64,000 bases of DNA. It comes from Turicimonas muris (lineage in GTDB: Bacteria > Pseudomonadota > Gammaproteobacteria > Burkholderiales > Burkholderiaceae_F). The position numbers and the translations under genes were made by a program. The notes under the pieces are model-generated. The model saw only the letters and a list, made by a program, of their open reading frames with translations. It was not told where the DNA came from and did no database searches. Below, one piece after another: positions 900-15,322 of this stretch (its first letter is position 1; each line of letters starts with the position of its first letter). The stretch lies in the NCBI RefSeq assembly GCF_002221595.1, contig NZ_NHMP01000005.1, positions 1 to 64,000 on the forward strand, written 5' to 3'.

Positions 900-1847
900 C
901 TATACCAATGTGTTCATCTGTCCTGCATAGAGAATAAACAAACGCAGGCACATCATGCCGCCGATGGCGCAAAGACCGGCAAAATAGAATGACATCTTGG
1001 ATTCCGGTTTAGATCCGGCCACAATGGAAGCCAGTAATGGCACGCCGAAACCGACACACACCGCACCGACCCAGAATACAACAGCCCAGACGCCTTCAGT
1101 AAAGGCACTGAATGCCAACTTGGCAGATTCGTTGCCGCTCAGAAGAGCAATCGCAATCATGAACAAACAGAAAGCTTCCGTTGCCATGACCGGCCACTCT
1201 GCCTGATGCATTGCGTGCATGTCAGGATCAGTTTCTTTGGCTCCGAAGAACCAAGCCGCCAAAATCTTCGTCGCAGCCATCCCGGCAGAAATACCGGAGG
1301 CAACGAACAAGGCAGGCAGCACGGCTGTATTGATAAGAGGGAAACGAATAAGTGCGGAAATCAGGAAACCTGTATAGGCGCAGATCGCAAGGGCTAAAAC
1401 CATAACAATCGAGTTAATCCAAGTTTTCCACGCTTCCAGCTCTTCGCACACAGGCTTGATCCAACCCAACAGCGGCCAAGTGCTGAATGTATCTGCAAAG
1501 CACATAACAAACAACACGGCAACCAGAGGTATGTAGAAAAGCAGCAGCATGACGCCGATACTCATAACGCTTGTCGGGTTGTAATAGACCAAAATTCTCC
1601 AGAAATACAGAGGATTTGTCAGGTCAAGGACCAAACAAAGCATACCTAAGAGAATGGTAGCCAAACCAATGATGCTGGCTGACTTCAGGATCGGAGTGAC
1701 GTCGCTTTTATGCTTAAAGAAATTAAGCATCAAAGCAACTGCCACAGCTCCCCCGGAAATGCCTGCTAGGAACAGATAAACCGCGATTGGCCAAGGCCAA
1801 GCAATCCCCTCGGATAAACCGGTCGTAAAAGTAATAGTACCGTCCAT
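900..1847 (-). CDS. NrfD/PsrC-family quinone-interacting membrane subunit
   Basis: A 315-residue integral membrane protein with about eight hydrophobic helices, of the NrfD/PsrC family that exchanges electrons between the quinone pool and a periplasmic Fe-S partner. It is the last gene of the ydh-like operon; its ATG abuts the stop of the Tat ferredoxin gene (TAA-ATG) and its SD lies inside that gene. In E. coli the equivalent place in ydhYVWXUT is taken by a b-type cytochrome, YdhU, so this operon swaps the membrane anchor. Together with the upstream four-cluster ferredoxin it forms a typical NrfC-NrfD pair. Confidence 0.85.
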   Translation of the reverse strand: MDGTITFTTGLSEGIAWPWPIAVYLFLAGISGGAVAVALMLNFFKHKSDVTPILKSASIIGLATILLGMLCLVLDLTNPLYFWRILVYYNPTSVMSIGVMLLLFYIPLVAVLFVMCFADTFSTWPLLGWIKPVCEELEAWKTWINSIVMVLALAICAYTGFLISALIRFPLINTAVLPALFVASGISAGMAATKILAAWFFGAKETDPDMHAMHQAEWPVMATEAFCLFMIAIALLSGNESAKLAFSAFTEGVWAVVFWVGAVCVGFGVPLLASIVAGSKPESKMSFYFAGLCAIGGMMCLRLFILYAGQMNTLV

Positions 1848-2639
1848 TTAGATGCTCTCCTTTGTAACGGGGATGTATCTCACGCTTGGATTTGTTCCAA
1901 GATGAGGTTTTACACGGACAGTGTCCTTGACGTTAAGGAGCTTGCTGACATAAGAATTCGGATCGTTGACGTCACCGAATGCCAGAGCGCCGTAACGGCA
2001 TTTAGAAACACAGGCCGGATCTTCACCGTTAGCCAATTTAGTTTGAAGACAAAAGTCACAGTTTTCAGCGACTTTTGTCGTCGGATTAATGAAGCGGACG
2101 TTGTAGGGGCAAGCCGCAATGCAGTATTTGCAACCCACACATCTGTCCGGATCCATCGTAACGATATTCGTGACTTCATCTCTATGTGCAGCCTGTGTCG
2201 GACAGACACGAACGCAAGGTGCATCCAGACACTGCTGGCAAGAAACGCGGACGTAAACTCGTTCACAATCACACGGTTCAATCTTTCCGCAATACGGACA
2301 GGCTGTTCCGGGAACTCTCGTATTTTGTCTTTCAAGAACCATACGATGAACACCCGGAGGCAGTTTATTAACTTCGCTACACGCTTCTACACATTCACCG
2401 CATCCAACGCACTTGTTCTGGTTGAACACCAAAACATAATGAGGATTGGAAGCTGCGTTTTTTTGTGCAGAGCCGGCTGCAGGTTGTCCTTTCGTCTTAT
2501 CAGCCTCAGCAGCTTTTTGAGATTTATCTCCGGACTTCTGAGGTGTTTCTGATTTTGGAGAACAACCGGCAAGCGTGAGAACGAACAGAGAACCGGCGCC
2601 AGCGCCTCTCAAAATTGTTCTTCTGTTTAAAGTACTCAC
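1848..2639 (-). CDS. Tat-exported 4Fe-4S ferredoxin lipoprotein, YdhX/NrfC-like
   Basis: A 263-residue electron-transfer protein. I set the start at GTG 2639 because AAGGAGGT lies 5 nt upstream. This gives a compact Tat signal with RR at 6-7 and a lipobox LAGC (Cys26), so it should be anchored in the membrane on the periplasmic side. Four ferredoxin-type cysteine sets follow (about residues 77-87, 134-146, 167-177, 194-197). The order and the segment around CDFC match E. coli YdhX. An insertion between sets 1 and 2 carries four further cysteines (C114, C117, C123, C125; CPYC...CDC) that could bind zinc or another cluster. It likely passes electrons to the NrfD subunit encoded next. Confidence 0.85.
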   Translation of the reverse strand: MSTLNRRTILRGAGAGSLFVLTLAGCSPKSETPQKSGDKSQKAAEADKTKGQPAAGSAQKNAASNPHYVLVFNQNKCVGCGECVEACSEVNKLPPGVHRMVLERQNTRVPGTACPYCGKIEPCDCERVYVRVSCQQCLDAPCVRVCPTQAAHRDEVTNIVTMDPDRCVGCKYCIAACPYNVRFINPTTKVAENCDFCLQTKLANGEDPACVSKCRYGALAFGDVNDPNSYVSKLLNVKDTVRVKPHLGTNPSVRYIPVTKESI

Positions 2640-2721
2640 AATGTACCTCCTTGGCGGTTTTAACCGCTTAATCTTCATAAGGGAGAGGTTGGTTCGGGAT
2701 ATGTCCCGAACCGTCCCAACC

Positions 2722-3765
2722 TTACTTGGCTACGACTTTGGTGTAACCGCCCTTGTCGATGATTTGCTGTGCCTTGGCAATGTAAGCTTTGGCAGTCTGA
2801 ACGCGGTCAAGCAGGTAATTCTGTGCATGAACGCCCCAAGATCCGTCTTTCTGAATCATTGCTGCAATATCATCAGCCTTGTCCAGCAGCAAACGAGCTT
2901 CGGTCTGATCAGCCGGACTTAAGCGGGTAACTTCAAGAAGTTTTCTGATGCGCGGAATGGCGCCTGCAACTTCTTCGTAACCTTCTTTGATCGGAGTCTG
3001 CCACTTCATCACTTCGCCGTAGACTTCTTTCTGATCTTGGTAAACGAGACCTTGATCTAGTTTAGAAGTGGCTTCGTTGTGGCATCCCTTCCCTTCGAAG
3101 ACGGTGTAGTCGGCAGGAGAATTTCTTGCGCAGCTCCACATCAAATCCACAAAGGCGTTGCCGTCTTCATTCTTAGCAAGAACGTAGGCCTTGACTTTGC
3201 CTTTTGGTGTGTCGACTTCTTCCTGAACCATTGTGGAAGCGGCCGGATCAACATTGATCTTGTATGTATGCAGGCGTTTGAGAGCCTTTGGGCCAGCAGC
3301 CTTTTGATCGGTTGAGTAGTCATCGGCAGAGGCCATATTCGGCATATGGCAAGCGATGCAGTCGATCTTGTCATGAGTATCGGTATGCGCAAAGACTTCG
3401 GCTTGAACGGTATGGCAGTCTTGGCAGCTCTGACGAATTGCCGGCTTAGAAACAACGGCCATCCAAGCAACGCCTTGTTTGCCCTTCGGATCGTGACAAG
3501 AAACACAGCTCACGCCTTTCTGAGAGTGCACTGTCATAAAGTGCTGATCGGCTTTTTCTTGATAAGCCTGCTGAGTCAGCAATGTCTTTTCTTTCTTAGT
3601 CAGCTTAGGCTGCGCATCTTTGGCAATGCCTAAGGACTGCATGAATTCCGGTTTTTCAGGAATATTAATCTGTTCAACTTTGTAGCCGCCTTCCTGGGCA
3701 AATACGGCAGAAACTCCAAACGCTGCCAAACAAGAAAGAGCTATAGTGGTTAATTTCGTAAGCAT
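2722..3765 (-). CDS. Periplasmic multihaem cytochrome c with CX15CH motif
   Basis: A 347-residue protein starting at ATG 3765, which gives a clean Sec signal peptide ending near VFAQ; an earlier in-frame ATG at 3804 would put an unlikely leader in front. Three canonical haem c sites are visible (CVSCH 87-91, CQDCH 114-118, CIACH 136-140). A fourth possible site has exactly 15 residues between the cysteines (C212...C228-H229). CX15CH binding is known for the active-site haem of the sulfite reductase MccA. The C-terminal third is helical, as in NrfA/multihaem relatives. The E. coli ydh operon has no such gene. Its likely role is electron transfer between the Fe-S proteins and the quinone module, or a catalytic haem site. 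Confidence 0.8.
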   Translation of the reverse strand: MLTKLTTIALSCLAAFGVSAVFAQEGGYKVEQINIPEKPEFMQSLGIAKDAQPKLTKKEKTLLTQQAYQEKADQHFMTVHSQKGVSCVSCHDPKGKQGVAWMAVVSKPAIRQSCQDCHTVQAEVFAHTDTHDKIDCIACHMPNMASADDYSTDQKAAGPKALKRLHTYKINVDPAASTMVQEEVDTPKGKVKAYVLAKNEDGNAFVDLMWSCARNSPADYTVFEGKGCHNEATSKLDQGLVYQDQKEVYGEVMKWQTPIKEGYEEVAGAIPRIRKLLEVTRLSPADQTEARLLLDKADDIAAMIQKDGSWGVHAQNYLLDRVQTAKAYIAKAQQIIDKGGYTKVVAK

Positions 3766-3821
3766 GGTATTTTCGCACCTATGTTGCGGAGCCTGAAATC
3801 TCAAAACTCCGGCATTCTTTA

Positions 3822-4616
3822 CTAGAGCATTTCTGCTTCGCCCTGATCCATTTCCTCGGCCAAGAAGTCCGCGTAGGCATCTTCCAAGTAATCGGAAGAA
3901 TAGAGATACAGAGAGCCGGCTGAGGTTTCGGCAACTCGTATATCCTTTGCCTTCGGGTCCTTAGCGACCTTATCCAAAACATCTTGGATGACTTTCGGGT
4001 CGAGGTTGAACGGAGCAAACTCAAAGGAAAAAATTCCAACCGGTCTCGGATACAGCTGCGAGCTTTCACGAACCGTATTCAATATCAGCTGATAAGGATT
4101 GTTCTGAGCAGACATGAGTCTTGCGAAAGAACTGGAAAGAAGCGGCAGGAAATGTACATACCGTTTTCCGTCCCAGCTTTCGAATTCCTCAATATTGTTC
4201 GGACCTTTCAGAGCTTCAGCGTAGACCTCGTCGAAATATTCCGGAGTGACTTCTCTAAGTTCTTCGGGTTCGCCTTCTTGTTTTTCCAGATCTCTTACGC
4301 TCAGCTCTCCGTTAAACAGAGAGTGAAGCATTCTTCTTCTGGAAATCAGTCTGCGGCGTTCCTTTCCTTCCGGACTGTCGTCAGCAGAATTGCGCAGTTC
4401 TTTTTCCTTATAAGGAATAGTGTCAATTTCAGTCTTCGCTTCCTCTTCGGTCAGCATTTTCTGATTCGGAGCCCGTTCGAGAAACTCTGCCCGGAGCTCT
4501 TCAACAGTGACAAGTTGAACCTTGGAACTGTGTTCTGTGACTAAGTCAACAAGAAATACGATGTCAGATTTGAACTGGCTGGTATTTGTTGAGAGTTTGT
4601 TTTCAGGACAATTCAT
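3822..4616 (-). CDS. YdhW-like protein of the AOR-type operon
   Basis: A 264-residue protein without signal peptide, metal motif or membrane helix. Its C-terminal half aligns by eye with E. coli YdhW: a YPRP motif, a KDIRVAET-like strand (E. coli ADIRQVES) and an LYLYS segment (E. coli LYLFS). E. coli YdhW is about 215 residues; this one has a longer, charged N-terminal half. It sits directly after the AOR-type gene, as ydhW follows ydhV. YdhW has no established function. A cofactor-insertion or assembly chaperone for the enzyme is a reasonable guess only. Confidence 0.75.
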   Translation of the reverse strand: MNCPENKLSTNTSQFKSDIVFLVDLVTEHSSKVQLVTVEELRAEFLERAPNQKMLTEEEAKTEIDTIPYKEKELRNSADDSPEGKERRRLISRRRMLHSLFNGELSVRDLEKQEGEPEELREVTPEYFDEVYAEALKGPNNIEEFESWDGKRYVHFLPLLSSSFARLMSAQNNPYQLILNTVRESSQLYPRPVGIFSFEFAPFNLDPKVIQDVLDKVAKDPKAKDIRVAETSAGSLYLYSSDYLEDAYADFLAEEMDQGEAEML

Positions 4617-4625
4617 ACTATTGCT

Positions 4626-6746
4626 CTACTTTCCAGGCATTAAACCTTCTTTTTGCATGACAGGGACAACGAAGTCGAGCTGCATTTCTTTGTAGGCCTT
4701 TTCAGTCGGGGCACCGGTCTTCGGATCCCAGCCAACCATTTCAAAGAAAATATCAAAGCTCTTTTCGATATCGTCTTTATCCATTCTGATCGTGCCTTTC
4801 GTAAATGCAGGACGATTCTTCGGATCTGTGAAAATCCAGTTCGGATAGAAGTCGTGTTTCTTGCGCATATTCAGCTCATTCATCTGACGCATTGTGTAAG
4901 CGCGGTGAAGAGTAAATGCTCTGAAACCGGCGTTGTCTAACTGTTGAGCAGTGTCCTTTCTGCCTGTTAAAGCACGATAGACCTTGCCTTCCATGTCATC
5001 GTCTCCGATGTAGTTGTCAGACTTGTTCGGAGAAACAACCCACGGAGCCATCCAAGAGCAAAGACCCAACATATCGTGAAGTTCTTTTCTGCAGATAACC
5101 CAGCGGAGGCGGCGCATCTTAGCTTCGTTTGTCGGAGTGTAGTCGCCGATCTCATCGACGGCATCTCCGCTACCCCAGAAGCGTTCGGCAATTGTCTTCT
5201 TAACGCCGATTGGCAAGCCGCTTCTTGTGAAGTTAACGGTACCGTGGCTCATCGGGTCGCGGTTGTACAGGCAGTTCAAAACAGTTCCGACCTGTCCGTC
5301 ATCTTCATTAGCATGATGTTTCGGATGGCTCAAAGCCCAGTAGTTCGTAGACTTATCATTTCTCCAATCATCTTCAGGGATGCCGAAGTGATCAAGCATA
5401 TAAGCGGTACTTTCTCCGAGCCACTTGCCCATTTCGCCTTGTCTGTAAGCGATACGGGTGAAGAGATCCATTAAGAAAGAGGCGTCGCAGTCTTCAATCT
5501 TCTGCCATGGAATGGAGTTGTATTCCTTCTCCGGCAGGACCTTCTTCCAACGCCCTTCTACGTACATCTTCTTGAAGTCGCGGTGCAGCTGACCGTAGTT
5601 GCACCAAACACCAAGGTCATCCATCACCTGAATACCTACCATGGAAGCTTGGCGGGCTGCCGGCAAATCGCGTTTAGCGGCAATCTTCGGAAAGATCACG
5701 CGGCCGAAATACAGAGACATGCAGGTCTGTTCGGTCATCTTATTGATGTGATAGCGGGCAGCAGCTTCATCATCTTCAACGATAGCGTAGCAACGGAGCG
5801 GGCAGCCGTAACAGCCGTTATTTCTAACCTTAATCTTCAAACCTTGCGGTTTGCCAAGGAAGAACTGGCTGGCGCACCAACGATAAGAAATGCGGTTAGG
5901 ACTGCGCATATCTTCAGAAAGAATAATAGGCGGATTAGCCTTCTGCCATACATTACCCGGCATACCGTTCCAACGGCTTCCCGGTGCATAGAACTCAAAC
6001 AGCGGATTAGGAGCAGACGGAACCACGTGCTGGTTCAAAGAACCGAACAGTTCGATATTTCTTTCGTTGATCTTCTGCCACTCTTGTTTATCGGCGTGAA
6101 TGTGAATCGGCTGGTCGCCGTTAACTACTACACCTTTGAGCTTCTTAGAACCGAAAATGCTGCCGATACCGCCGCCGGAGTGCTGGCGTGCGCTGATAAG
6201 TACAGACATTGGAACGAGGTTTTCACCGGCCGGTCCGATAACGGCTACAGAGGCCGTCGGCTTCGTCTGATTGGCGAGCATCTGTTGTGCGCGGCGTGTG
6301 CCTTGGCCCCAAATGCCTTTAGCGTCTCTAATTTCAACTTCGTCGTTGTCGATATAGAGATATACAGGTTTGTCAGATTTTCCTTCAATGATAATGAAGT
6401 CATATCCGGCCAACTTCAACTTAGCTGCCAAATCACCGCCGATGTGGGCGCTGGCGATCATCGGAATCGGGTAGATAGTCGGATAGATGGTAGTGATAGA
6501 AGTACGGCTGGAGCAAAGAGCACCTGATCCGGAGAATGGTCCGGGAGCAATAACCAATTTATTAGCTTCGTCTAAAGGCTGTGTCTTCGGAGGAACTTCA
6601 TCCCAAAATACGCGGTAACCGATAGCTGTTCCGCCGATTTCATCTTTGAAACGCGGGAATGTCGGCTCCTTGGTAATCTGGCCGGTTGTTAAATTAACGC
6701 GGAGGCCCTGACCGGTATAGCCATATCTTTTTTGTGTGTTGTCCAT
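4626..6746 (-). CDS. ydhV: Aldehyde ferredoxin oxidoreductase-family enzyme, YdhV-like
   Basis: A 706-residue enzyme of the AOR family (E. coli YdhV is 700). These enzymes hold tungsten or molybdenum on two pyranopterins plus one 4Fe-4S cluster. The cluster ligands are visible as C312-x2-C315-x3-C319 and probably C563 (LGLCSW). The N-terminal domain carries the GIGSIFGSKKLKGV cofactor-binding signature (about 193-206). No Tat or Sec signal is present, although its YdhY-like partner has a canonical Tat signal. An SD (AAAGGA) precedes the ATG. YdhV in E. coli binds a bis-MPT molybdenum cofactor but has no known substrate; here too the substrate cannot be read from sequence. Confidence 0.88.
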   Translation of the reverse strand: MDNTQKRYGYTGQGLRVNLTTGQITKEPTFPRFKDEIGGTAIGYRVFWDEVPPKTQPLDEANKLVIAPGPFSGSGALCSSRTSITTIYPTIYPIPMIASAHIGGDLAAKLKLAGYDFIIIEGKSDKPVYLYIDNDEVEIRDAKGIWGQGTRRAQQMLANQTKPTASVAVIGPAGENLVPMSVLISARQHSGGGIGSIFGSKKLKGVVVNGDQPIHIHADKQEWQKINERNIELFGSLNQHVVPSAPNPLFEFYAPGSRWNGMPGNVWQKANPPIILSEDMRSPNRISYRWCASQFFLGKPQGLKIKVRNNGCYGCPLRCYAIVEDDEAAARYHINKMTEQTCMSLYFGRVIFPKIAAKRDLPAARQASMVGIQVMDDLGVWCNYGQLHRDFKKMYVEGRWKKVLPEKEYNSIPWQKIEDCDASFLMDLFTRIAYRQGEMGKWLGESTAYMLDHFGIPEDDWRNDKSTNYWALSHPKHHANEDDGQVGTVLNCLYNRDPMSHGTVNFTRSGLPIGVKKTIAERFWGSGDAVDEIGDYTPTNEAKMRRLRWVICRKELHDMLGLCSWMAPWVVSPNKSDNYIGDDDMEGKVYRALTGRKDTAQQLDNAGFRAFTLHRAYTMRQMNELNMRKKHDFYPNWIFTDPKNRPAFTKGTIRMDKDDIEKSFDIFFEMVGWDPKTGAPTEKAYKEMQLDFVVPVMQKEGLMPGK

Positions 6747-6765
6747 TTCAGTTCCTTTCAGTTAA

Positions 6766-7470
6766 TTAACCGTGGCAAACAGAACACTGTTTGGTGTTTT
6801 CTTCCGGCAGATAACCGTGAACAGGGCGCTTGCCTGGTTCGCCGGAACGATCTTTCCAAGGCAGATAAACGAGAGCAGCGGCCGGACAGGCTTTCACGCA
6901 CTTCGGATCACCGTCGCATAAGAAGCACTTACTGGCTTTTTCCGCTTCGCGGTCAAAAGTCATCATGTCCCAAGGACAGGCTTTCTGACATAAACCGCAG
7001 CCGATGCACTGGTCTTCGACAACGAATCTTGCACCGGTTTCCGGATTAACTTGAATGGCGCCTTGAGGACAGGCATTGGCGCAAGGAACCGGGTGAGCAC
7101 ACTGGCGGCAGGTATCCTGGACGACAGTGGAGTTGCCCCAAACACCCTGCAGAGGACGGTAACCGGAGTTGCCCGGGCCGTACCAAATATTGCGGCCGAT
7201 CTTAATTCTGGCTAAAACGGGGTCGTTTTTGCCGTCGTTATATTCGGTACAGGCCATTTCACAGCGCTGGCAATCAACACAGAGAGAGGGATCACCAACG
7301 ATTAAACCTTCCGGTGCCTGCAAAATGATGTAAGGACGTGTTCCGGTTTGGGCTCGTACTTGGTTCATCGCAGCCAATGTAGCAGTCACGGATGCGACCT
7401 CGAGGAAACCGCGTCGGGTAATGTCATGGGGTAAATTGACCTTGGACATCAAGTCTTTTAGATCAAACAT
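6766..7470 (-). CDS. ydhY: Tat-exported 4Fe-4S ferredoxin, YdhY-like, with terminal CXXCH
   Basis: A 234-residue electron-transfer protein matching E. coli YdhY in length and cysteine layout: four ferredoxin sets (about C64-74, C121-134, C155-165, C182-195), beginning with CVDCQRCEMAC. The N-terminus has a canonical Tat motif TRRGFLE (RR at 19-20) followed by a hydrophobic stretch ending VRA; E. coli YdhY has only a degenerate form. The protein ends in CSVCH-G (229-233), a textbook haem c attachment site, which would be functional only in the periplasm. The SD AGGAGA sits upstream of ATG 7470. It is probably the direct redox partner of the AOR-type enzyme. Confidence 0.85.
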   Translation of the reverse strand: MFDLKDLMSKVNLPHDITRRGFLEVASVTATLAAMNQVRAQTGTRPYIILQAPEGLIVGDPSLCVDCQRCEMACTEYNDGKNDPVLARIKIGRNIWYGPGNSGYRPLQGVWGNSTVVQDTCRQCAHPVPCANACPQGAIQVNPETGARFVVEDQCIGCGLCQKACPWDMMTFDREAEKASKCFLCDGDPKCVKACPAAALVYLPWKDRSGEPGKRPVHGYLPEENTKQCSVCHG

Positions 7471-7588
7471 AATTATTTTTCTCCTGGTGGAGGGACGAAA
7501 AACCGTAGTAATCCGTCATAGGGAGAGCTTCTAAAACTCGAGCTTGTGCCGCTTTTTAGAAACTTACTGGCTTTAAGAGTGGCAAAGA

Positions 7589-7744
7589 TTATTTGCTTTG
7601 GAGGGACCAGCCGTTGCTGCCGACAGGCTTAATAGTCCATCTTGTGCGTAAGGAAGGGGTAATAAAGGAAAGAACAACAGAACAATCACGCTCGGAGGCG
7701 ATGCATTGAATTTCCGAATTGTGATTGGTTCTTATGGAACTCAT
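7589..7744 (-). CDS. Small ORF (51 aa) leading the ydh-type operon
   Basis: A 51-codon reading frame starting at ATG 7744, with GGAG 7 nt upstream. It begins MSSIRTNHNSEIQC and ends WSLQSK, with two cysteines and three tryptophan/arginine-rich turns. I do not recognise it. It lies 118 bases before the ydhY-like gene on the same strand, directly downstream of a 6-bp hairpin (7756-7773) that abuts its SD. It could be a small accessory protein or a regulatory leader peptide. Only the SD and position support it. Confidence 0.4.
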   Translation of the reverse strand: MSSIRTNHNSEIQCIASERDCSVVLSFITPSLRTRWTIKPVGSNGWSLQSK

Positions 7745-8626
7745 TTTATTTCTCCGCAACAATTAACTGTTGCCGTCTTGGGGAGTACTGCTGAAAACCT
7801 TTACATTTGTATGAAACGTAACAGAATGTTAGGAATTTTAACAAATAGAAATAAATAGTGAAAAGGTTTTAAGCTCCTTTTAACAATTTTCCCAGTTAAA
7901 AAAATCATTAAATTTATATAATTTATCGACTATGTTTGCATATTAATTAAAATATTTATATTAATTTCAAGTAATTATTTACTCATTTATTTTTTAAATT
8001 ATTTTTCATGTAACTCAAAAATTATGAGTTGTAAATTTACAAATATCATCCTTTCGGATTAGCTTTATTCGCAATATCGAAAATTTGAATCCGATACAGG
8101 GTTCTTAGCGATGCTCCGGAACGAGCGTTCCGCCTGCACGTATAAAGGCCAAAACATCAACAGTGTCAAAGGATATAAATGAATAACAGAGCAAAATCAC
8201 ATTTTCTGTGGAACTCGGTTTTGTCAGTTTTGTACGCTTTACAACTTACATCCTCAAGCACTAGCCTTCATTGGTCTTGTGTACTAACTCTTGCGAACCG
8301 TGTCTTGAATTTGGGCACTGATAACTACATCTTTCCTGCGTCCAAAAACTTCAATCAGGAAGGACATCTGAAGAGAGTATCCTCTAGTCTGCATATTTAT
8401 CTCCTGGGGAACGATTCTTTTTTACTGAGACAATTTTCTGCCAGATAACTGCTCGAGTAGTTTGATATAGATCAAACTTTGGTCACTTTTTTAAGTCAAT
8501 GAGGAAACAGAGAAGACGACACAGCCAAGAACTTCAAGTTGTATCAGCTCATATTTGCTGATTACTTCACAGATTTATCTGTGTCTCGGCCTAAAATAAC
8601 GGTTTTAGGTTTATTGCGTCCAAGTC
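7745..8626. other. Long divergent intergenic region, partly very AT-rich
   Basis: About 880 bases between the ydh-type operon and moeA. 7800-8060 is strikingly AT-rich and would suit promoters of the minus-strand operon. A 6-bp hairpin with a GAGC loop lies at 8117-8132. A plus-strand frame at 8179-8448 (89 codons) has an AAAGGAT before its ATG, but its product looks like no protein I know and I do not call it. An FNR-type site lies at 8462-8475. No tRNA or other RNA gene was recognised. Confidence 0.5.
8462..8475. promoter_or_regulatory. FNR-type operator
   Basis: TTGAT-ATAG-ATCAA is an exact match to the FNR/CRP-family consensus TTGAT-N4-ATCAA, and the palindrome extends one more base on each side. 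It is 151 bases upstream of the moeA-like start. An anaerobically induced moeA fits a cluster of molybdenum/tungsten enzymes. E. coli ydhY is itself FNR-activated, but this site is about 1 kb from the ydhY-like start. Confidence 0.7.
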
Positions 8627-9802
8627 ATGAACGGAAATTTTGTACTCTATCCTTTCAGCCGTCCGCCGTTGCCATTTGAAAAAGTCAAAATCACTTCTCC
8701 TTTGGCAAATAGTTTTGGTCTTGAACTGGCGGAAGACGTTATCAGCCAAGAAAATATTCCACCCTATGATGTGGCAACCAGAGACGGCTGGGCTATTGCA
8801 ACCGAAGATAAGCACTATCCGCTTAAATCTCCGGCAATCGTTAACGGCGAAGGGCCGAAGTACTTGGAAGTCGATTCATACTGCTGGATCAACACCGGAG
8901 GATATTTACCGGAGAGGGCCGACGCCGTTGTTTCTAACAAAGAGCCGTCCGATCCTGAATTCGGTCTCGACACATATCCACTTGAAAATGTCTTGCCGAA
9001 AGGCAGCGAATGGCAAAGAGGCGAGTTAATTCTCAAAGCCGGGACGGTGCTGGCTGCTGCGCAGCAGGCCCTTTTGTTTGAAGCGGGGATTCAAGAAGTA
9101 ACCGTATACAAACGCCCTTCCGTTGCAATTTTAGCCACGGGACACGAAATTGTTGAAGCAGGTTCGGAGTCAATAGTCAAAAGAGGACGGCATTCGAGCA
9201 ATGCCACTTATCTCTCTAATCTGCTGAATGGTCTGGGACTAACCGACACAGCCGTCTTTTTTGCAAAAGACTCTGCGGTAGAACTTACCTCGAGGCTCAT
9301 TTCGTTGGGTCAATATTTTGACTTTATCATTACCGTCGGCGGCACAGGTCAAGGCAAGAGCGATTTGTTGCGCAAAGCTATCAAAATGTCCGGCGGTTCT
9401 CTTATCAAGGACGGCACCCGGTTATCCAGTTCCCTTCCGTTTGTATATGGAAAGATGAACAAATCGATTCTTATCGGCCTACCTGGCAATCCGCTCGGCT
9501 TTATTTGTCTAGCTCAGCGATTTGTCCTTCCTCAGATTTGGTCTTCCTTCATGACTACACCTTTTCCTGTGAAGAAAGTAGAAGCGATCATGGGCTTCAA
9601 TTTCCAAGGAAAAGCCGGAGATATCTGTGTTCAGCTTGCTCCTTTGGGTGATCATCTTATTGCCCTTCCGCTGCAAAAAGGAAGCGGTCGTTCTGCGTCA
9701 TTCAGAGATGCACAGGCCATTATTAAGAATCCAAAAGGACACCACTTAGAAGCAAACCAGCAAGTAGAAGCTGAGCTCTTCTTCAACGGCCTTCACTTTT
9801 AG
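8627..9802 (+). CDS. moeA: Molybdopterin molybdenumtransferase (MoeA-like)
   Basis: A 391-residue MoeA-family protein that inserts molybdate or tungstate into adenylated molybdopterin. Visible family marks: DVATRDGWA near residue 49, PSVAILATGHEI near 164, GGTGQGKSDL in the MoCF-binding domain, and GLPGNP near 285. The usual GGVS loop is changed to GGTGQGKSD, so it may be a divergent paralogue rather than the main housekeeping MoeA. The SD upstream of ATG 8627 is weak. It faces away from the AOR-type operon and has an FNR site upstream, so a dedicated role in maturing that enzyme is plausible. Confidence 0.85.
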   Translation: MNGNFVLYPFSRPPLPFEKVKITSPLANSFGLELAEDVISQENIPPYDVATRDGWAIATEDKHYPLKSPAIVNGEGPKYLEVDSYCWINTGGYLPERADAVVSNKEPSDPEFGLDTYPLENVLPKGSEWQRGELILKAGTVLAAAQQALLFEAGIQEVTVYKRPSVAILATGHEIVEAGSESIVKRGRHSSNATYLSNLLNGLGLTDTAVFFAKDSAVELTSRLISLGQYFDFIITVGGTGQGKSDLLRKAIKMSGGSLIKDGTRLSSSLPFVYGKMNKSILIGLPGNPLGFICLAQRFVLPQIWSSFMTTPFPVKKVEAIMGFNFQGKAGDICVQLAPLGDHLIALPLQKGSGRSASFRDAQAIIKNPKGHHLEANQQVEAELFFNGLHF

Positions 9803-9986: not shown

Positions 9987-11486
9987 CTAACCTCTGGCTT
10001 TTTCTTTAGCGACATTTTCGCCCGCGATCCTGCCAAAGACGAAGCAGTCAAGAAGAGCATTACCGCCGACTCGGTTGGTTCCATGGATACCGCCGGTAAT
10101 TTCGCCGGCTGCATATAAGCGAGGAATCGGAGTTCCGGTGCAGTCCAGAACTTGAGCCTTGGTGTTGGTATTCAATCCGCCCATCGTATGGTGAACGGTC
10201 ATGCCTGTGTAGCAAGCCCAGAAAGGTCCTTTTTCAATCTTTCTTGTGAGATTGCGCGGTGCCTTATAGAAGTCAGGATCTTCCTTGTTTTTGATAATAA
10301 CGTTGTTATATCTGTCTACCGTCTTCTGCAAACCTTCAGGATCCACGCCCATCTTCACAGCCAGTTCTTTAATAGTCGGAGCTGTCCATGCTTCGTTGAT
10401 TTCAATGCCTCTTTGAACTGCATCATGTACGGCACTGTTGTATGACTCATACTGATTATTATCAACCACTGTATAGCCATAGCGTTCCGGTGTGCCTAAT
10501 ACTGCATCACGGATATGATCGCGCCGTGCGCCTTCATCAACGATACGATTGCCTCGTTTATCTACATAGATGGAACCGTCCACATTGGTATTCAAGATGA
10601 TCTTCATCTTCTTACCGGCCGGTGCTCCCGGAGTGGACTGGATGAAGTCCATACCAATCAAATATCCGCCGATTCGATTTGCAGCCATCATTACATCACC
10701 GGTATGGCCGGGAAGATTGTCAGTGCCGAGGCCGGCAGTTCTCGGATCATGCAGTTCTCTTAAATACTGATTGCCGGAGAATCCGCCGCTGGCCAAAACT
10801 ACGCCTTTCTTGGCTTCGATATTTAAGACTTGTCCTTTGCTGTTTTGAACTTTTACGCCTAGGACATCGCCGCTCCATGGCTGTTCGCGGTAAATTTCAA
10901 CGACGGAGAAACCGGTCTTGAAAGGAACGTTTTCTTTCTTCAGGGCTTTAGACAAAACACCTGTATAACCGATGCCTTTCGGAACTGCAGGAGAGTGAGC
11001 GCGAGGATAGAGACCGCCGAACATTTGATGAACTGTAGGCTTGAATTCCATTCCTAAGCCTTCAAGCCATGTGATTACGCTATAGGCATTATCACAAAGG
11101 ACTTTGACGCGGGCAGGATCGCCTCTGAAATCGCCGGCAGCTAAGGTTTGAGCGGCATGCTTTTCAGGAGAATCTTCAATATTTTGCTTCGGTTGACGGA
11201 CCGGGTCTGCTGCATTAATTTGGCCTTGAGCTGCCATTGTATTACCGCCGGCAAAAAGCAATTTTTCAATAATTACTACTTTTGCTCCGTTTTGTGCAGC
11301 CAACAATGCAGCAGCCATGCCAGCTCCGCCGCCGCCAACTACAACAACATCATAGGATTCGTCCCACTTCTGAGGAACGTACGGATTTGCAGGATTTGAG
11401 GTCTGGGCAAGAACAGCTCCGGAACCAAAAGCAAGAACACCTGCACCGGCTGTCTTGAAAAGATTTCTTCTGCTAATGTTGGACAT
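9987..11486 (-). CDS. Tat-exported FAD-dependent fumarate reductase-type flavoprotein
   Basis: A 499-residue periplasmic flavoprotein of the FrdA/flavocytochrome c reductase family. A Tat signal SRRNLFK (RR 6-7) is followed by a hydrophobic segment ending VLAQ. The FAD dinucleotide fold starts at VVVGGGGAG (48-56). The C-terminal AAGEITGG...NRVGGNALLD segment is typical of the family. It lacks the haem domain of flavocytochrome c3 and the FMN-binding domain of UrdA-type proteins, so it needs a separate electron donor. It lies 104 bases downstream of a FixJ-type regulator gene. The substrate could be fumarate or another unsaturated acid and is not decidable here. Confidence 0.88.
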   Translation of the reverse strand: MSNISRRNLFKTAGAGVLAFGSGAVLAQTSNPANPYVPQKWDESYDVVVVGGGGAGMAAALLAAQNGAKVVIIEKLLFAGGNTMAAQGQINAADPVRQPKQNIEDSPEKHAAQTLAAGDFRGDPARVKVLCDNAYSVITWLEGLGMEFKPTVHQMFGGLYPRAHSPAVPKGIGYTGVLSKALKKENVPFKTGFSVVEIYREQPWSGDVLGVKVQNSKGQVLNIEAKKGVVLASGGFSGNQYLRELHDPRTAGLGTDNLPGHTGDVMMAANRIGGYLIGMDFIQSTPGAPAGKKMKIILNTNVDGSIYVDKRGNRIVDEGARRDHIRDAVLGTPERYGYTVVDNNQYESYNSAVHDAVQRGIEINEAWTAPTIKELAVKMGVDPEGLQKTVDRYNNVIIKNKEDPDFYKAPRNLTRKIEKGPFWACYTGMTVHHTMGGLNTNTKAQVLDCTGTPIPRLYAAGEITGGIHGTNRVGGNALLDCFVFGRIAGENVAKEKARG

Positions 11487-11590
11487 AATAAACTCCTTGA
11501 AGATTTTGAGAAAAAACTTCCCCTGAGAGGACCTTTTCAGTCCCCTGTGAATTGAATTAACTGTTTAAAAAACTATTGAGAAATAAAGCG

Positions 11591-12214
11591 TTACGCCTCT
11601 ATATGCGACATAAACTCTCTTAGTTGTATTAGGTCTCTGACACCGACTTTGTTATAGGCATTGAAGCGATGAGTTTCTACGGTTCTCTCACTCAATCCTA
11701 ACCTTTGAGCAATCTGGTAGTTCATCAATCCGGCATTAACCAACTTCAATACTTCCTTTTCTCGTTGAGTTAAAGCGTCGTAGAACTCCTGATACCTGAC
11801 CATTCGATAATCCTTATGCCGTTCTTCATTATCAGTCTTCACGGCTCTTTCAACAGCTTCAAGCAGAACTTCAGCTGACACAGGCTTTTTCAGAATATCA
11901 ACGGCGCCTTTTCTAAAAGCGGTAATGGCCATGTCTACATCCGCATGAGCTGTAAGAAAGATGATAGGCTGAGAATAACCTTCATGCGCCAGCATTTCCT
12001 GAAACTCCAAACCATTCACCAAAGGCATTTGGTAATCCAAAATGATGCAGCCGGGAACTTCCGGATCGTCCTTTTTCAAAAACGAAGCGGTGTCAGAATA
12101 AAAAGTGACAAGCCAGCCTTCAGTCTTGAGGATGAAACGGATTGCGTCTCCGAATCCTTCGTCATCATCAACAATACGAACGATTGAATTTTCCTGAAGT
12201 TTGCGGTCGATCAC
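11591..12214 (-). CDS. FixJ/TtrR-type response regulator
   Basis: A 207-residue two-component regulator: an N-terminal receiver with acidic pair D16/D17, phosphoacceptor D60 (in LDYQMP), TAH near 93-95 and a KKP lysine, followed by a LuxR/FixJ-type HTH (about 145-200; LTQREKEVLKLV...SERTVETHR). The start is GTG 12214 with GGGAG 6 nt upstream. The porin gene ends only 17 bases before it, so they are co-transcribed. The likely partner is the divergent kinase at 13505. The pair resembles TtrS-TtrR, which senses tetrathionate, but the signal here is unknown. Confidence 0.85.
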   Translation of the reverse strand: MIDRKLQENSIVRIVDDDEGFGDAIRFILKTEGWLVTFYSDTASFLKKDDPEVPGCIILDYQMPLVNGLEFQEMLAHEGYSQPIIFLTAHADVDMAITAFRKGAVDILKKPVSAEVLLEAVERAVKTDNEERHKDYRMVRYQEFYDALTQREKEVLKLVNAGLMNYQIAQRLGLSERTVETHRFNAYNKVGVRDLIQLREFMSHIEA

Positions 12215-12231
12215 TTTTTTCTCCCAAAAGA

Positions 12232-13374
12232 CTAAAAGTTATGACACACACCGAACGCTGTTGTTAAACGAGTCGCCTTGCTTTCAGCATTCTTGAACAT
12301 TCCTGTTCCTCTGGCATAGCTGCCTACTGCATAGAGCGAGGTTCGCTTGGACAATGGATAGAGGTACTTTAAAGAAGCGACCCAACGATCGCCGTCCCTG
12401 TCGGCATCTGTCTTCATGCTTTCACCCTGCCATTTTCCCATATTCCATTTGAAGGCGCCAAAGAGTTTTCCTCCGCCTACAGGATAGCTACCGCCGATAA
12501 CAAAGGAGTCGGATCTAAAGCCTTTCCTGCTTTCTTTGACCTTAGCTGCGGTTCCAAAACCTAAATCTTTGGCATAAAAGGCATTAGGACCGCCGCTCAG
12601 GTTTCGAGAATTCCAAACATGTTGGTATCCGAGGTTTAGGCGAAACTGTCCGAACATCTTATATGCTGTCAAGAATAAGTTATAAGTCGGCTCCGAATCT
12701 GCCCCATTATTGGCTCCGGCTTTTCTGTAATCGATCACTGTAAAAACAGTTCCTACGCTAAAGTCAGCTTGTTTGTATTGGGCAGATAGACCATAGTAAT
12801 GATTGTTTTTACTCCAAGTATCCTCATCAGAGGAGATGCCGTTTGAGTATTGCGCCGTCAAAGTAACTGAATTGGTTGGCTTTACTTGGTAAGTAACAGA
12901 ATTGTTGAGCATTCCGGAATTAACCAGAGAACCAATAAGAGCAGCATCTAAGAAGTTGCTTGCCATTGGATTGGCACCCATCTTTGGAAACTGCCCAAAG
13001 TATCCGGTGGTGCCCATTAAAGAGCCCGAGCGGCCGAAACCAAGTTCGCCCCATTTCCCGCCGACGAGCAGTAAAGAATCTCTGTCGAAAAGCACACCGG
13101 CGGTTTGAGGAGCTCCGTTATTCACTTTGATGCCTTGTTCCAAGATGAACTTAACGTAATTCCCACTCCCGAGTTCTTCTTTTCCCGTCAGACCCCAACG
13201 ACTGGCGGCATTTCCTCCCGAGACGGCTTGAACACTAGTCTGCTGACCTTTGCCTTTCATAACGCCGAAACCCGTATCCACAACACCGTAAACACTCACC
13301 GTGCTTTGAGCGTAAACAGTCGGGACCGCGCACAGCAAACAAAAGGTTAATATCTTGTTGGACAATCCTGACAC
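12232..13374 (-). CDS. Gram-negative porin (Burkholderia-type)
   Basis: A 380-residue general porin of the Porin_4/OmpC-like family of betaproteobacteria. I chose GTG 13374 because AAGGAG lies immediately upstream and it gives a short signal peptide ending TVYA before QSTVSVYGVVD. The in-frame ATG at 13404 would add ten charged residues. Mature-chain marks are SRWGLTGKEELG near the N-terminus, repeated aromatic-ended beta strands and a C-terminal phenylalanine (CHNF). It is the first gene of an operon with the FixJ-type regulator, so uptake of a respiratory substrate may be under that two-component system. Confidence 0.85.
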   Translation of the reverse strand: MSGLSNKILTFCLLCAVPTVYAQSTVSVYGVVDTGFGVMKGKGQQTSVQAVSGGNAASRWGLTGKEELGSGNYVKFILEQGIKVNNGAPQTAGVLFDRDSLLLVGGKWGELGFGRSGSLMGTTGYFGQFPKMGANPMASNFLDAALIGSLVNSGMLNNSVTYQVKPTNSVTLTAQYSNGISSDEDTWSKNNHYYGLSAQYKQADFSVGTVFTVIDYRKAGANNGADSEPTYNLFLTAYKMFGQFRLNLGYQHVWNSRNLSGGPNAFYAKDLGFGTAAKVKESRKGFRSDSFVIGGSYPVGGGKLFGAFKWNMGKWQGESMKTDADRDGDRWVASLKYLYPLSKRTSLYAVGSYARGTGMFKNAESKATRLTTAFGVCHNF

Positions 13375-13427
13375 CTTTTTCTCCTTTGTTTTGAGAACTT
13401 CCATGGCTCCAAGATAAAGAAACCATC

Positions 13428-13450
13428 ACTTAGGATCCTGGTACCTAAGT
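13428..13450. promoter_or_regulatory. Inverted-repeat operator between porin and sensor kinase
   Basis: ACTTAGG and CCTAAGT form a perfect 7-9-7 palindrome in the 130-base space between the divergent porin-regulator operon and the kinase gene. It is a good candidate binding site for the FixJ-type regulator of this locus. A second copy was not seen upstream of the flavoprotein gene. Confidence 0.5.
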
Positions 13451-13504
13451 ACTAAAAAAGGTGAAAATCCTAATAGGCCGGTATGAGATCATAGAGGCAG
13501 TGAT

Positions 13505-15322
13505 ATGGAGATCTTTATGCCGAAAATTCTCTTGCTTTTATTGCTGCCTTTGGCTTTGTTATCGGGTCCGGCACAAGCCACTTACGTAGTTGGTCTCGGA
13601 ACCGGTGCTATGTCGAGCAACGAGCAAGAATTCTTTGAAGCAACTAAAAATTATCTGGAACAGAAATTCGGCACGAATGAAATCCAATTCATGCAGCCGG
13701 TGTCTCTTACGCACTTAAAGAAACTGATAGAAGAAAAGAAAATCGAGTACTTCATTTCTTCGGCAGGCTTTGCTCGCTCTCTTTCACAAGACGGTGTTCG
13801 CGAGCTATTAATCTACGCTCCTACTAAAAAGGGAACAGATAGAAATGAATTAGGCTCGGTCTTTTTAACTCGGCAGGAGATGACCGTGCGCACGCTTGCC
13901 GATTTAAAAGGCAAACGCTTTACCTCCAACAATCCTGAGGCTTTTTTTAGCCACATTGTGCCGTTAGCAGAAATCAGTTATGCCGGATACGATCCTAAAA
14001 AATTCTTCTCCTCGGTATCTTTCCTCAATAAAAATCCCGAAGATCTTCTGCAGGCTTTAATTGACGGAAGAACCGATGTCGTAGCGCTCCCCGGCTGCTA
14101 TTGGGAAACCTTGTCCGCACAAAATAAAGAAATTCGAGAGAAGGTAAATCCGGTGTTAGTCTCGAGTACGTCTCCTTGCACCAGCTCTACTCGAACCTTT
14201 CCGAATTGGACCTTATCTTCTACAAAAAACAGCGATGCGGCCTTCACACGAAAGTTAGTTACTGCACTTCTTGAGATGCCATTTTCGAAAGGAACCGCTT
14301 CATGGTCGGTTCAAATGGATCTCAGCTCAATTGATGGTCTTTTCAAGGAGCTGAAGATAGGCCACTTCTCTGACTACCGGCCTTGGACTCTCAAAGAAAT
14401 GCTTCAAAAGTACAGTTTTGCAGTCCTTCTTTTTGCAGTTTTCCTTTTGGGCCTGCTTTCTCTGACGCTCTTCCTTTACCTGAAATTAAAAAGAAGGTCT
14501 GAACAGCTTGTAGCTACGTTAAGAGCCAAAATCAAAACCGATCGGGCTATGAAAGAGGCCGAAGCCCGTTTGATGGCGTTGCAAAAAATAAGCACCATCG
14601 ATCATATGAGTTCAATGATTGCGCATGAACTACCTCAACCTTTAGGGGCCGTCCAAGCTTATGCCGAAGGTCTTTTGCGAGCACAAAACAAACAAGCACT
14701 TGACAGTCAAACTCTGACCGAGATGCTAATAAAAATAATTTTTCAGACCAAGAAAGTTGAAGATATCGTCAACTCGGTCCGAAATTACGCAAAAGAAAGA
14801 AAGTTAAAGAAAACACCATCGAAAGTTAACGGAACAGTAGCGGAAGCTATCCAAGATTTTCGCTTTGCCTTTCATTGTGATAATTTGGCAATCAATTTTT
14901 TCCGATCAAATGCTGAGCCGGTTTGCAGTTTGTCGCCTTTGGAATTTGAATTGGCAATCTACAATCTGCTTAAGAATGCCAAGGAGGCTCTCGAAGCTCA
15001 AAATGTTAAGAATCCGGAGATCACTCTTGCTGTTAACGAGGACAAAGATAGTTGCAGAATAGCCATTGCAGACAATGGGTCCAAGGTCTCAGATGATGAA
15101 CTGCAAAGAATCCAAGTATCCATGTCCTCTCGCAAAAGTGCCGGGTTAGGAATTGGTCTTTCCATCGTGAGATCCATCATTCAGAATCACGGAGGAAAAT
15201 TTTCAATCAAACGAACTGAACTTGGGTCAGGTATTACCTGCGAAATAACGCTTCCGCTTTTCAAAGCAGAGCATTCTCAGGAAATCAAACCTGACCGAAC
15301 CATAGAGGCTCACACAAAATAA
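13505..15322 (+). CDS. TtrS-like sensor histidine kinase with PhnD-type periplasmic domain
   Basis: A 605-residue membrane kinase. A signal-like N-terminus (about 6-26) is followed by a periplasmic PhnD/TtrS-type solute-binding domain (30-290), one transmembrane helix (about 304-326), a HisKA helix with His374 in IAHELPQPLG, and a HATPase domain with N-box NLLKNAKEAL (487-496), DNG (523-525) and GLGIGLSIV (547-555). Cys198 and Cys215 in the sensor domain recall conserved cysteines of TtrS. It is divergent from the porin-regulator operon. ATG 13517, with GGAG upstream, is an alternative start. It probably senses an alternative electron acceptor used by the adjacent flavoprotein. Confidence 0.85.
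   Translation: MEIFMPKILLLLLLPLALLSGPAQATYVVGLGTGAMSSNEQEFFEATKNYLEQKFGTNEIQFMQPVSLTHLKKLIEEKKIEYFISSAGFARSLSQDGVRELLIYAPTKKGTDRNELGSVFLTRQEMTVRTLADLKGKRFTSNNPEAFFSHIVPLAEISYAGYDPKKFFSSVSFLNKNPEDLLQALIDGRTDVVALPGCYWETLSAQNKEIREKVNPVLVSSTSPCTSSTRTFPNWTLSSTKNSDAAFTRKLVTALLEMPFSKGTASWSVQMDLSSIDGLFKELKIGHFSDYRPWTLKEMLQKYSFAVLLFAVFLLGLLSLTLFLYLKLKRRSEQLVATLRAKIKTDRAMKEAEARLMALQKISTIDHMSSMIAHELPQPLGAVQAYAEGLLRAQNKQALDSQTLTEMLIKIIFQTKKVEDIVNSVRNYAKERKLKKTPSKVNGTVAEAIQDFRFAFHCDNLAINFFRSNAEPVCSLSPLEFELAIYNLLKNAKEALEAQNVKNPEITLAVNEDKDSCRIAIADNGSKVSDDELQRIQVSMSSRKSAGLGIGLSIVRSIIQNHGGKFSIKRTELGSGITCEITLPLFKAEHSQEIKPDRTIEAHTK

Follow-up and report, generated by a model that had tools for sequence, protein, structure and literature searches.

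In a gut bacterium, a Mo/W enzyme seems to be coupled to the electron-delivering half of a sulfite-respiratory enzyme

The window, a 64,000-nucleotide stretch of Turicimonas muris DNA, carries an operon in which ydh genes stand next to genes for a multihaem cytochrome and an NrfD-type membrane protein, which raises the question of what these parts are and how electrons would pass between them. The operon lies on the minus strand, from 7470 to 900, and its six co-directional, tightly packed genes follow the order ydhY-ydhV-ydhW-cytochrome-FeS-nrfD (ydhYVW plus an mccA'CD module), with gaps of 19, 9, 56, 82, and 0 bases, respectively. This is the gene order that the first-pass annotation had proposed, and we regard the operon as almost certainly a chimera of Ydh and Mcc parts. 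The genes are as follows.

6766..7470, minus strand: ydhY, ferredoxin-type subunit; Tat-like RRGFL (by eye) and 16 conserved Cys
4626..6746, minus strand: ydhV, catalytic subunit of the AOR family with an expected Mo/W bis-MPT site; cluster cysteines plus metal-ligand Cys342
3822..4616, minus strand: ydhW, accessory protein; YdhW family match, AF2 model with winged-helix-like elements
2722..3765, minus strand: half-MccA, tetrahaem cytochrome homologous to MccA residues 412-700; Sec-type signal by eye
1848..2639, minus strand: MccC/NrfC-type FeS protein; Tat-like signal and lipobox LAGC, both by eye
900..1847, minus strand: MccD/NrfD-type integral membrane quinol/quinone subunit; Pfam NrfD, E=7.5e-64

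Searches for E. coli YdhU and YdhT gave no tblastn match at 1e-3 in the window or in the ten hybrid loci searched, and the same queries did match in E. coli and Proteus. With the Pfam NrfD match, this agrees with the earlier proposal that an NrfD-type anchor stands in place of the cytochrome b YdhU. The window had no Rfam match.

YdhV scored 863.3 bits over residues 5-704 against NCBIfam PRK09849, narrowly under the curated score of 868 that serves as a naming threshold, and matched AFOR_N (7.6e-60) and AFOR_C (3.8e-33), both above the Pfam cutoffs. Its cluster cysteines (C312, C315, C319, and C563) and its metal-ligand cysteine (C342, the equivalent of E. coli Cys336) were kept in all 14 aligned YdhVs; C312, C315, and C319 align to cysteines of the solved AOR and FOR, and C563 aligns to one of FOR. 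In the available text of PMC12096430, a metal-ligand cysteine is reported for the YdhV and BamB clades only, both clades are described as being without the second-shell residues of aldehyde oxidoreductases, and the characterized AOR-family clades other than these two are aldehyde oxidizers. Because YdhV has this cysteine, an aldehyde-type role is weakened; the residue, as read from the alignment, argues against aldehyde detoxification, and the "detoxifying oxidoreductase" suggested earlier loses ground to that extent. We assign YdhV to the Class V WOR/YdhV clade, here in a new operon variant. A trait of Class V WORs, a WorS partner with a Tat signal, is found in YdhY (RRGFL by eye, 16 conserved Cys), and a signal sequence was not visible by eye in YdhV itself.

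The 16 conserved cysteines of YdhY are sufficient for four [4Fe-4S] clusters. Outside them, the protein ends in CSVCHG, which contains a candidate extra haem c site.

6772..6786, minus strand: CSVCH of YdhY, candidate extra haem c site

A CXXCH at this end was present in 12 of 12 complete proteins from the family, compared to 0 of 5 outside it, and judged from the motif the YdhY tail probably carries haem. The product of the third gene reached 79.9 bits against the YdhW family profile, compared to a cutoff of 203. The YPRP and DIR blocks on which its kinship to YdhW had been based were both found. The AF2 model of YdhW (pLDDT 81.8) gave nothing at E<=0.001 in Foldseek. A function could not be read from its fold, since the hits of VIA-align 2 (top Z, 9.9) were mostly winged-helix chains, a fold that is too common.

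The cytochrome was previously given a generic multihaem label. The added cytochrome c is indeed there, and it is better described as a truncated MccA. Residues 69-338 align to residues 412-700 of MccA (E=3.4e-61), and the protein has three CX2CH motifs and one rare CX15CH motif, corresponding to haems 5 to 8, with haems 1 to 4, including the active-site haem 2, missing.

3493..3507, minus strand: haem motif CVSCH (MccA haem 5)
3412..3426, minus strand: haem motif CQDCH (MccA haem 6)
3346..3360, minus strand: haem motif CIACH (MccA haem 7)
3079..3132, minus strand: rare CX15CH haem motif CARNSPADYTVFEGKGCH (MccA haem 8)

The CX15CH spacing was seen in 9 of 12 such halves, and the remaining three keep both Cys and the His at a different spacing (16 in genome G055, by eye). 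The 12 halves and the 22 aligned full MccAs keep, without exception, the eight haem cysteines that they share, along with four non-motif His, enough for four distal haem ligands. Four other residues, C412, C415, C494, and H441, were present in 22 of 22 full MccAs compared to 0 of 12 halves. We take the invariant non-haem cysteines of full MccA to be Cu-site candidates, presumably among the residues that bind Cu. Haem 2 is described as the active site of MccA in the available text of PMC7096707. Because haems 1 to 4 and the three invariant non-haem cysteines are missing, sulfite reductase activity of the MccA type is not expected. The tree places the halves in a single clade (100/100), inside a larger group (99/99) that also holds full MccAs from Sutterellaceae/Burkholderiales; every row of the tree other than the halves is full-length. 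By alignment and tree, the cytochrome is identified as MccA, an octahaem sulfite reductase, reduced to its C-terminal half. Among the window and the 13 loci searched, a query with the N-terminal half matched at the genome's own mcc locus and nowhere else. The 12 N-terminal pieces of the halves were also searched with hmmsearch for leftover MccA sequence from the region between haems 2 and 3: nine matched, each with a match within profile positions 308-329, and the best score, 0.9 bits, equals the best of 480 shuffled pieces, 252 of which matched. The AF2 model of half-MccA was poor (mean pLDDT 56.1), too low for a fold search.

The last two genes also point to Mcc. The FeS and nrfD products scored 341 and 374 bits against the genome's own MccC and MccD, respectively, and missed the NrfC and NrfD equivalog cutoffs (204.1 of 377.6 and 236 of 347.6 bits). 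In the trees, both fall among Mcc proteins, and YdhX lies far off in the MccC tree, so the "ydhX" label of the first-pass annotation does not hold. Half-MccA, MccC, and MccD thus resemble one block, the electron-delivery part of the Mcc sulfite reductase, to which ydhYVW would be coupled. The MccC and MccD trees split the hybrid copies over more than one clade (4 and 2 changes, respectively; short searches with many weak branches), and the three genes may thus not have come over in a single joint move.

Is this arrangement kept? Among 67 genomes of the family, nine have ydhV, and these same genomes are the ones with half-MccA; the two genes are adjacent in 12 of 13 operons. The six-gene order recurs in nine intact copies from six genomes and in one further copy with in-frame stops; one operon (G035 C159) is without ydhW. 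Class-wide, 1 of 369 genomes matched PRK09849, the own genome, and order-wide, 7 of 300 genomes matched the cytochrome, all from the same family; each of these samples was an even draw from a larger group. Since the halves of all hybrid operons belong to a single clade, the co-occurrence represents one event that was kept, as opposed to many independent ones. These counts bear on the idea that half-MccA is a separate periplasmic shuttle for other reductases, merely coexpressed with Ydh and with no bridge from YdhY to MccC. It is a soluble-looking tetrahaem cytochrome, and the window encodes other oxidoreductases, such as the flavocytochrome c-type protein at 9987-11486, that it might serve. 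However, the halves found adjoin ydhV (4 of 4 among 36 named loci, from a scan of short peptide patterns that reaches close relatives only, so that halves elsewhere are possible, and 12 of 12 in the family search), mccC follows in 11 of 12, with the contig ending there in the twelfth, and the haem-motif tail of YdhY goes with the halves. We consider such a shuttle improbable.

Selection on the operon genes is purifying. Whole-gene dN/dS was 0.04-0.12 for ydhY, ydhV, the cytochrome, mccC, and mccD where estimable, with several pairs saturated at synonymous sites, and 0.046-0.065 for half-MccA in the 4 of 6 half pairs where it could be estimated. That the cytochrome is a truncated MccA, and that several genes of the G058 operon carry stops or breaks (either decay or an assembly error), would fit a decaying, functionless mccA fragment. 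The dN/dS values contradict this reading, as do the haem and distal-ligand residues, all of which are retained, and it is very improbable.

The neighborhood includes a possible maturation gene. The genome has three MoeA_N matches, and one of them, a divergent moeA paralogue and candidate dedicated metal insertase, is conserved beside operons of this type and is preceded by an FNR-type site.

8627..9802, plus strand: divergent moeA paralogue
8462..8475, plus strand: FNR-type site TTGATATAGATCAA in front of moeA, which may be chance

The FNR-type site had two exact matches in the window and six with one mismatch allowed, compared to a mean of 4.0 in shuffled sequence, a number also reached in 19 of 100 shuffles; the evidence for the site is weak. 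A TupA query, which had no positive control, gave no match in the own genome. Of the family genomes, all 26 that have an MccA-type match also have a second NrfE/CcmF-type lyase match, compared to 2 of the 41 that do not. The flavocytochrome c-type gene noted above is another oxidoreductase of the window.

As had been proposed, the rebuilt operon has sufficient redox centers for a wire from an AOR-type site to the quinone pool. Some members of the family keep it as a unit. The module is probably such a wire between YdhV and the pool. For direction and substrate, which we infer, the balance tips slightly toward flow from quinol to YdhV, and we cautiously favor, to a similar degree, a head-swapped respiratory complex, a menaquinol-linked periplasmic reductase. 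The catalytic half of an MccA gene would have been lost in an ancestor of some Sutterellaceae, and the truncated mccA, with mccC and mccD, would have joined ydhYVW. MccD would oxidize menaquinol, and electrons would run through the MccC clusters and the four bis-His haems of half-MccA, probably via the YdhY-tail haem, to the clusters of YdhY and YdhV and finally to YdhV's Mo/W-bis-MPT site, which would reduce an acceptor in the periplasm. Tat would export YdhV together with YdhY, the genome's second, NrfE-type haem lyase would attach the CX15CH haem here as in MccA, and the dedicated MoeA may load the metal.

The same chimera could run in reverse, with YdhV oxidizing a periplasmic substrate and half-MccA-MccC-MccD passing the electrons to menaquinone. 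NrfD-type subunits are known to work in both directions, but the Mcc block serves a quinol-oxidizing sulfite reductase. In 9 of 9 Shewanellaceae/Ferrimonas ydhV loci examined, an 11-CXXCH cytochrome gene is divergent from ydhY and no nrfC- or nrfD-like gene turned up nearby, which means that the quinol module is not the partner of ydhV everywhere; the two of these cytochromes that were scanned are OmcA/MtrC family members, a partner type that would fit a YdhV that donates electrons. The aldehyde-oxidizing AOR-family clades also favor oxidation, but the YdhV clade is without their second shell (both from the available text of PMC12096430), and, in the available text of PMC13328260, partially purified CsWOR41L with its partner subunit missing oxidized 0 of 46 aldehydes. 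Reversed flow is thus fairly unlikely.

The hybrid operon has several consequences. It points to the likely electron partners of YdhV, an enzyme whose substrate is still to be named, so that one could put together an active complex and test it with quinol analogues. The operon suggests modular exchange, with two unrelated catalytic heads on one quinol-to-cytochrome chain. A natural half-size MccA with electron-transfer haems alone bears on the purpose of the CX15CH-type haem and on what the dedicated CX15CH lyase recognizes. Parasutterella and Turicimonas, the named carriers, are gut bacteria, and their genes suggest that, in such a bacterium, a Mo/W enzyme has been combined with the electron-delivering part of a sulfite-respiratory enzyme into a new respiratory complex. 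Tentatively, and with somewhat less confidence than in the direction of flow, this might be the first AOR-superfamily periplasmic menaquinol-fed terminal reductase, in which a Mo/W head with BamB-like cysteine ligation replaces the octahaem sulfite reductase head, together with a natural "minimal" MccA whose CX15CH haem would be an electron-transfer haem separable from sulfite catalysis. The SirA paper states, in its available text (PMC6976685), that the unusual CX15CH-type haem could be the catalytic site.

The claim that the complex is undescribed stands in part. In the literature searched, no paper was seen to connect MccA with Ydh, although these operons may be shown in Supplementary Figure S4 of PMC13328260; the available text of that paper does mention Class V WORs, with Sutterella and Parasutterella among them, and "cytochrome-containing subunits." Compared to E. 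coli YdhYVWXUT (Class V WOR, clade 41), whose YdhV was purified apart from the rest of its operon (PMC13328260, available text), the operon has homologues of YdhY, YdhV, and YdhW in the same order and the Cys336 equivalent, but no YdhU or YdhT was found, MccC takes the place of YdhX, half-MccA and MccD are added, and YdhY has a CXXCH end. With the MccACD sulfite reductase (Wolinella MccA, PDB 4rkm; Shewanella SirACD), it shares haems 5 to 8 including CX15CH, the four candidate distal His, the MccC and MccD partners, and, in the Turicimonas genome, the NrfE-type second lyase; unlike in MccA, haems 1 to 4 with active-site haem 2 and the three invariant non-haem cysteines are gone from half-MccA. 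The NrfABCD nitrite reductase has the same FeS-plus-NrfD, quinol-to-cytochrome design, but its CXXCK is absent from the halves listed and, by eye, from the window copy. Finally, the class II benzoyl-CoA reductase BamB has the AOR fold and the extra metal-ligand Cys that it has in common with the YdhV clade (PMC12096430, available text), and the operon differs from it in its partners and in a putative periplasmic, quinone-linked setting.

The 2.89-Mb Turicimonas muris genome (20 contigs) that contains the window carries six genes in one direction on the minus strand, from 7470 to 900, separated by gaps of 19, 9, 56, 82, and 0 bases. Pfam and NCBIfam profiles gave the following names, which bear out the gene order proposed in the first-pass annotation.

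Gene 1, minus strand, YdhY-type ferredoxin (Pfam/NCBIfam naming)
Gene 2, minus strand, YdhV (Pfam AFOR_N, 7.6e-60, and AFOR_C, 3.8e-33; PRK09849, 863.3 bits, cut-off 868)
Gene 3, minus strand, YdhW (NCBIfam, 79.9 bits, cut-off 203)
Gene 4, minus strand, multihaem cytochrome (Pfam/NCBIfam naming)
Gene 5, minus strand, NrfC-type FeS protein (Pfam/NCBIfam naming)
Gene 6, minus strand, NrfD (Pfam/NCBIfam naming)

A second complete hybrid operon (operon 2) lies elsewhere in this genome (locus L003:7367-13809); its YdhV is 57% identical to that of operon 1, the window copy.

Judged by sequence, the cytochrome is half of MccA, the octahaem sulfite reductase. Its residues 69 to 338 align with residues 412 to 700 of Wolinella MccA (4rkm) at E=3.4e-61 in a PDB sequence search, in which the second-best match reached only 0.0067. 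A full-length MccA of 701 aa is also present in the genome, within an mcc cluster of rhodanese-like, FKBP-type, MccC, MccD, NosD-type, and ABC genes. To compare haem residues, 12 halves were aligned with 22 full MccAs, which include the T. muris copy and 17 of the 32 full-length loci from a scan of named genomes. Each full MccA has seven CX2CH motifs and one CX15CH motif. Each half has three CX2CH motifs, and a pattern search recovered CX15CH in 9 of the 12; it was not found in the halves of genomes G055, G057, and G062, which keep both cysteines and the histidine at a different spacing (16 in place of 15 in G055, by eye). The alignment columns show that the eight haem cysteines in the common region, together with four histidines outside the motifs (H427, H478, H515, and H662 in T. 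muris MccA numbering), are conserved in 22/22 full MccAs and 12/12 halves, whereas C412, C415, C494, and H441 occur in 22/22 full MccAs and 0/12 halves. The three cysteines missing from the halves are candidate copper ligands. The active site of MccA is at haem 2, with copper there (PMC7096707, PMC6703420). Since the haem 2 position falls within the portion missing from the halves and the shared haem cysteines and four histidines are conserved, the half is, on this pattern, a complete-looking bis-His tetrahaem unit whose catalytic part is gone.

A carefully built tree of the region common to halves and full MccAs (35 rows, Wolinella root) placed the 12 halves in a single clade (100/100). They group (99/99) with nine full Sutterellaceae MccAs, one of them labelled only Burkholderiales, and another 13 full MccAs, from Shewanella and Ferrimonas, form a separate group (99/99). 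The tree leaves the halves either inside or beside the nine; Wolinella, G014, and G058 have long branches. Because all other rows are full length, truncation of MccA is the simple reading. Quick trees were also made for MccC (35 rows, last 200 residues) and MccD (31 rows; pieces of <280 aa left out, that of G058 included); G035 is absent from both, as neither gene is on its contigs. The hybrid-operon copies fell among Mcc proteins, and the YdhX proteins of Escherichia coli and Proteus were far from them on a long branch. Because the hybrid copies are not one clade within the Mcc proteins (4 changes for MccC, 2 for MccD) and many branches are weak, a joint move of half-MccA, mccC, and mccD is called likely rather than certain.

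Searched with the cytochrome, the named genomes yielded 36 loci, of which four were halves adjoining ydhYVW, two operons each in a Turicimonas MAG and Parasutterella excrementihominis; the other 32 were long MccAs (at least 664 aa) from Sutterellaceae/Burkholderiales, Shewanella, and Ferrimonas, followed by an mccC homologue in 31 and mccD in 30 (L021 and L026 end too early). In a set of 67 genomes of the family, where full and half MccAs were separated by open-frame length, ydhV (E<=1e-100) was found in nine genomes and half-MccA in the identical nine. This count leaves out two short G061 matches, both of them fragments of full MccA cut off by contig ends, and a match of 244 aa in G060, which has no ydhV. 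The half lies near ydhV in 12 of the 13 ydhV operons of this set; in the thirteenth (G035, contig C211), the contig ends inside ydhW. The six-gene order that the first-pass annotation proposed to look for in other genomes thus recurs, with all genes intact in nine operons (two each in T. muris, Turicimonas, and P. excrementihominis, and one each in G055, G057, and G062). G058 has the same order but with stops and breaks: ydhV, the cytochrome gene, mccD, and the adjoining moeA (L095, contig C1) contain stops, breaks, or ambiguous bases, reflecting either decay or assembly error. In G014, the contig begins just before ydhV, leaving ydhY out of view. On contig C159 of G035, there is no ydhW between ydhV and the cytochrome gene (L091:1356-1551), and the contig ends past the latter. 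A full-length MccA frame is also present in 8 of the 9 carriers of halves and was not found in G055. Since the halves form one clade, the carrier counts point to long retention rather than repeated invention. For operon 1 ydhY, ydhV, half-MccA, mccC, and mccD and the operon 2 half, dN/dS was 0.04 to 0.12 in unsaturated pairs, in comparisons with high dS (1.2 to 2.8); synonymously saturated pairs gave pN/pS of 0.12 to 0.21. Evolution was faster in ydhW and moeA (pN/pS, 0.29 to 0.38).

A second CcmF/NrfE-type haem lyase (NrfE model, 602.5 bits), accompanied by an NrfG-like gene, is found in T. muris at L089:8506-11059 (contig C16, ~96.5 to 99 kb). A second lyase was matched in 26/26 family genomes with an MccA-type match versus 2/41 without one (G010, and a fragment in G031). 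It is within ~10 kb of mccA on the same contig in 12 of the 26; in T. muris, the two are on different contigs. As Wolinella and Shewanella are known to have lyases dedicated to CX15CH-type sites (PMC6976685), this lyase likely serves MccA as well as half-MccA. The genome has three MoeA_N matches; one of them, a divergent MoeA paralogue (window 8627-9802), adjoins operon 1 in T. muris, Turicimonas, and P. excrementihominis and the operon in G055, G057, and G062; the G058 gene is broken. In the three genomes that have an operon 2, no such MoeA was found next to that operon.

In the family, each of the 12 complete YdhYs has a tail of ~25 residues that leads to a terminal CxxCH and one further residue. 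Five YdhYs of other families (E. coli, Proteus, Cetobacterium, Ferrimonas, and one Shewanella-type) lack this motif. The tail cysteines are extra, since all 16 cluster cysteines are invariant in 17/17 YdhYs. From the motif, a candidate haem on the tail could connect YdhY with half-MccA.

The three-plus-one cluster cysteines and C342 are kept in 14/14 YdhVs; C342 corresponds to E. coli Cys336, which becomes residue 364 when the frame is called with 28 additional residues. According to PMC12096430, YdhV shares its extra metal-ligand cysteine only with BamB, a class II benzoyl-CoA reductase, and neither clade has the second-shell residues seen in aldehyde oxidoreductases. Section 12 of PMC13328260 reports that CsWOR41L, a relative, oxidised 0 of 46 aldehydes; PMC9103625 gives the substrate of E. 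coli YdhV as unknown. We therefore lean slightly toward a quinol-fed reductase, as in MccACD, over aldehyde detoxification, so that of the "respiratory or detoxifying" role first suggested, the respiratory part is favoured.

Nine of 29 Shewanellaceae/Ferrimonas ydhV loci were opened (L122 to L130). Next to ydhY and ydhV in these nine, no gene resembling nrfC, nrfD, or half-MccA was found. Eight of them gave a YdhW match, and the remaining one has a short frame of similar kind; in all nine, a cytochrome gene with 11 CXXCH motifs is divergent from ydhY (e.g., L122:10045-12399 and L130:1685-4096). The two of these cytochromes scanned belong to the OmcA/MtrC family (TIGR03507, 311 and 271 bits), and Ydh may be coupled to extracellular electron transfer here. 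The electron chains to which the Ydh head has been joined thus seem to differ among lineages.

Near the operon, window 9987-15322 encodes a flavoprotein of the flavocytochrome c type (TIGR01813, 369 bits), a response regulator resembling TtrR, a kinase resembling TtrS, and, by eye, a porin-like protein. TtrSR-like pairs also occur past mccD on the opposite strand in loci L093 and L094, and one adjoins the T. muris mcc cluster (by eye). A TorA/BisC-family molybdoenzyme (window 20615-22939) perhaps lacks a Tat signal, since the profile match begins near its N-terminus.

For class V WORs, the YdhV clade of AOR-family W/Mo enzymes, PMC13328260 mentions Parasutterella, Sutterella, and "cytochrome-containing subunits"; its main text names no NrfD and no Mcc protein (the sole word starting with "mcc" is an author name in the reference list), and a supplementary figure may show the operon. 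Judged by its fold, partner, and metal-ligand cysteine, the hybrid enzyme is a class V WOR. It is neither the E. coli Ydh complex, in which YdhX, YdhU, and YdhT are present, nor an MccA-type sulfite reductase.
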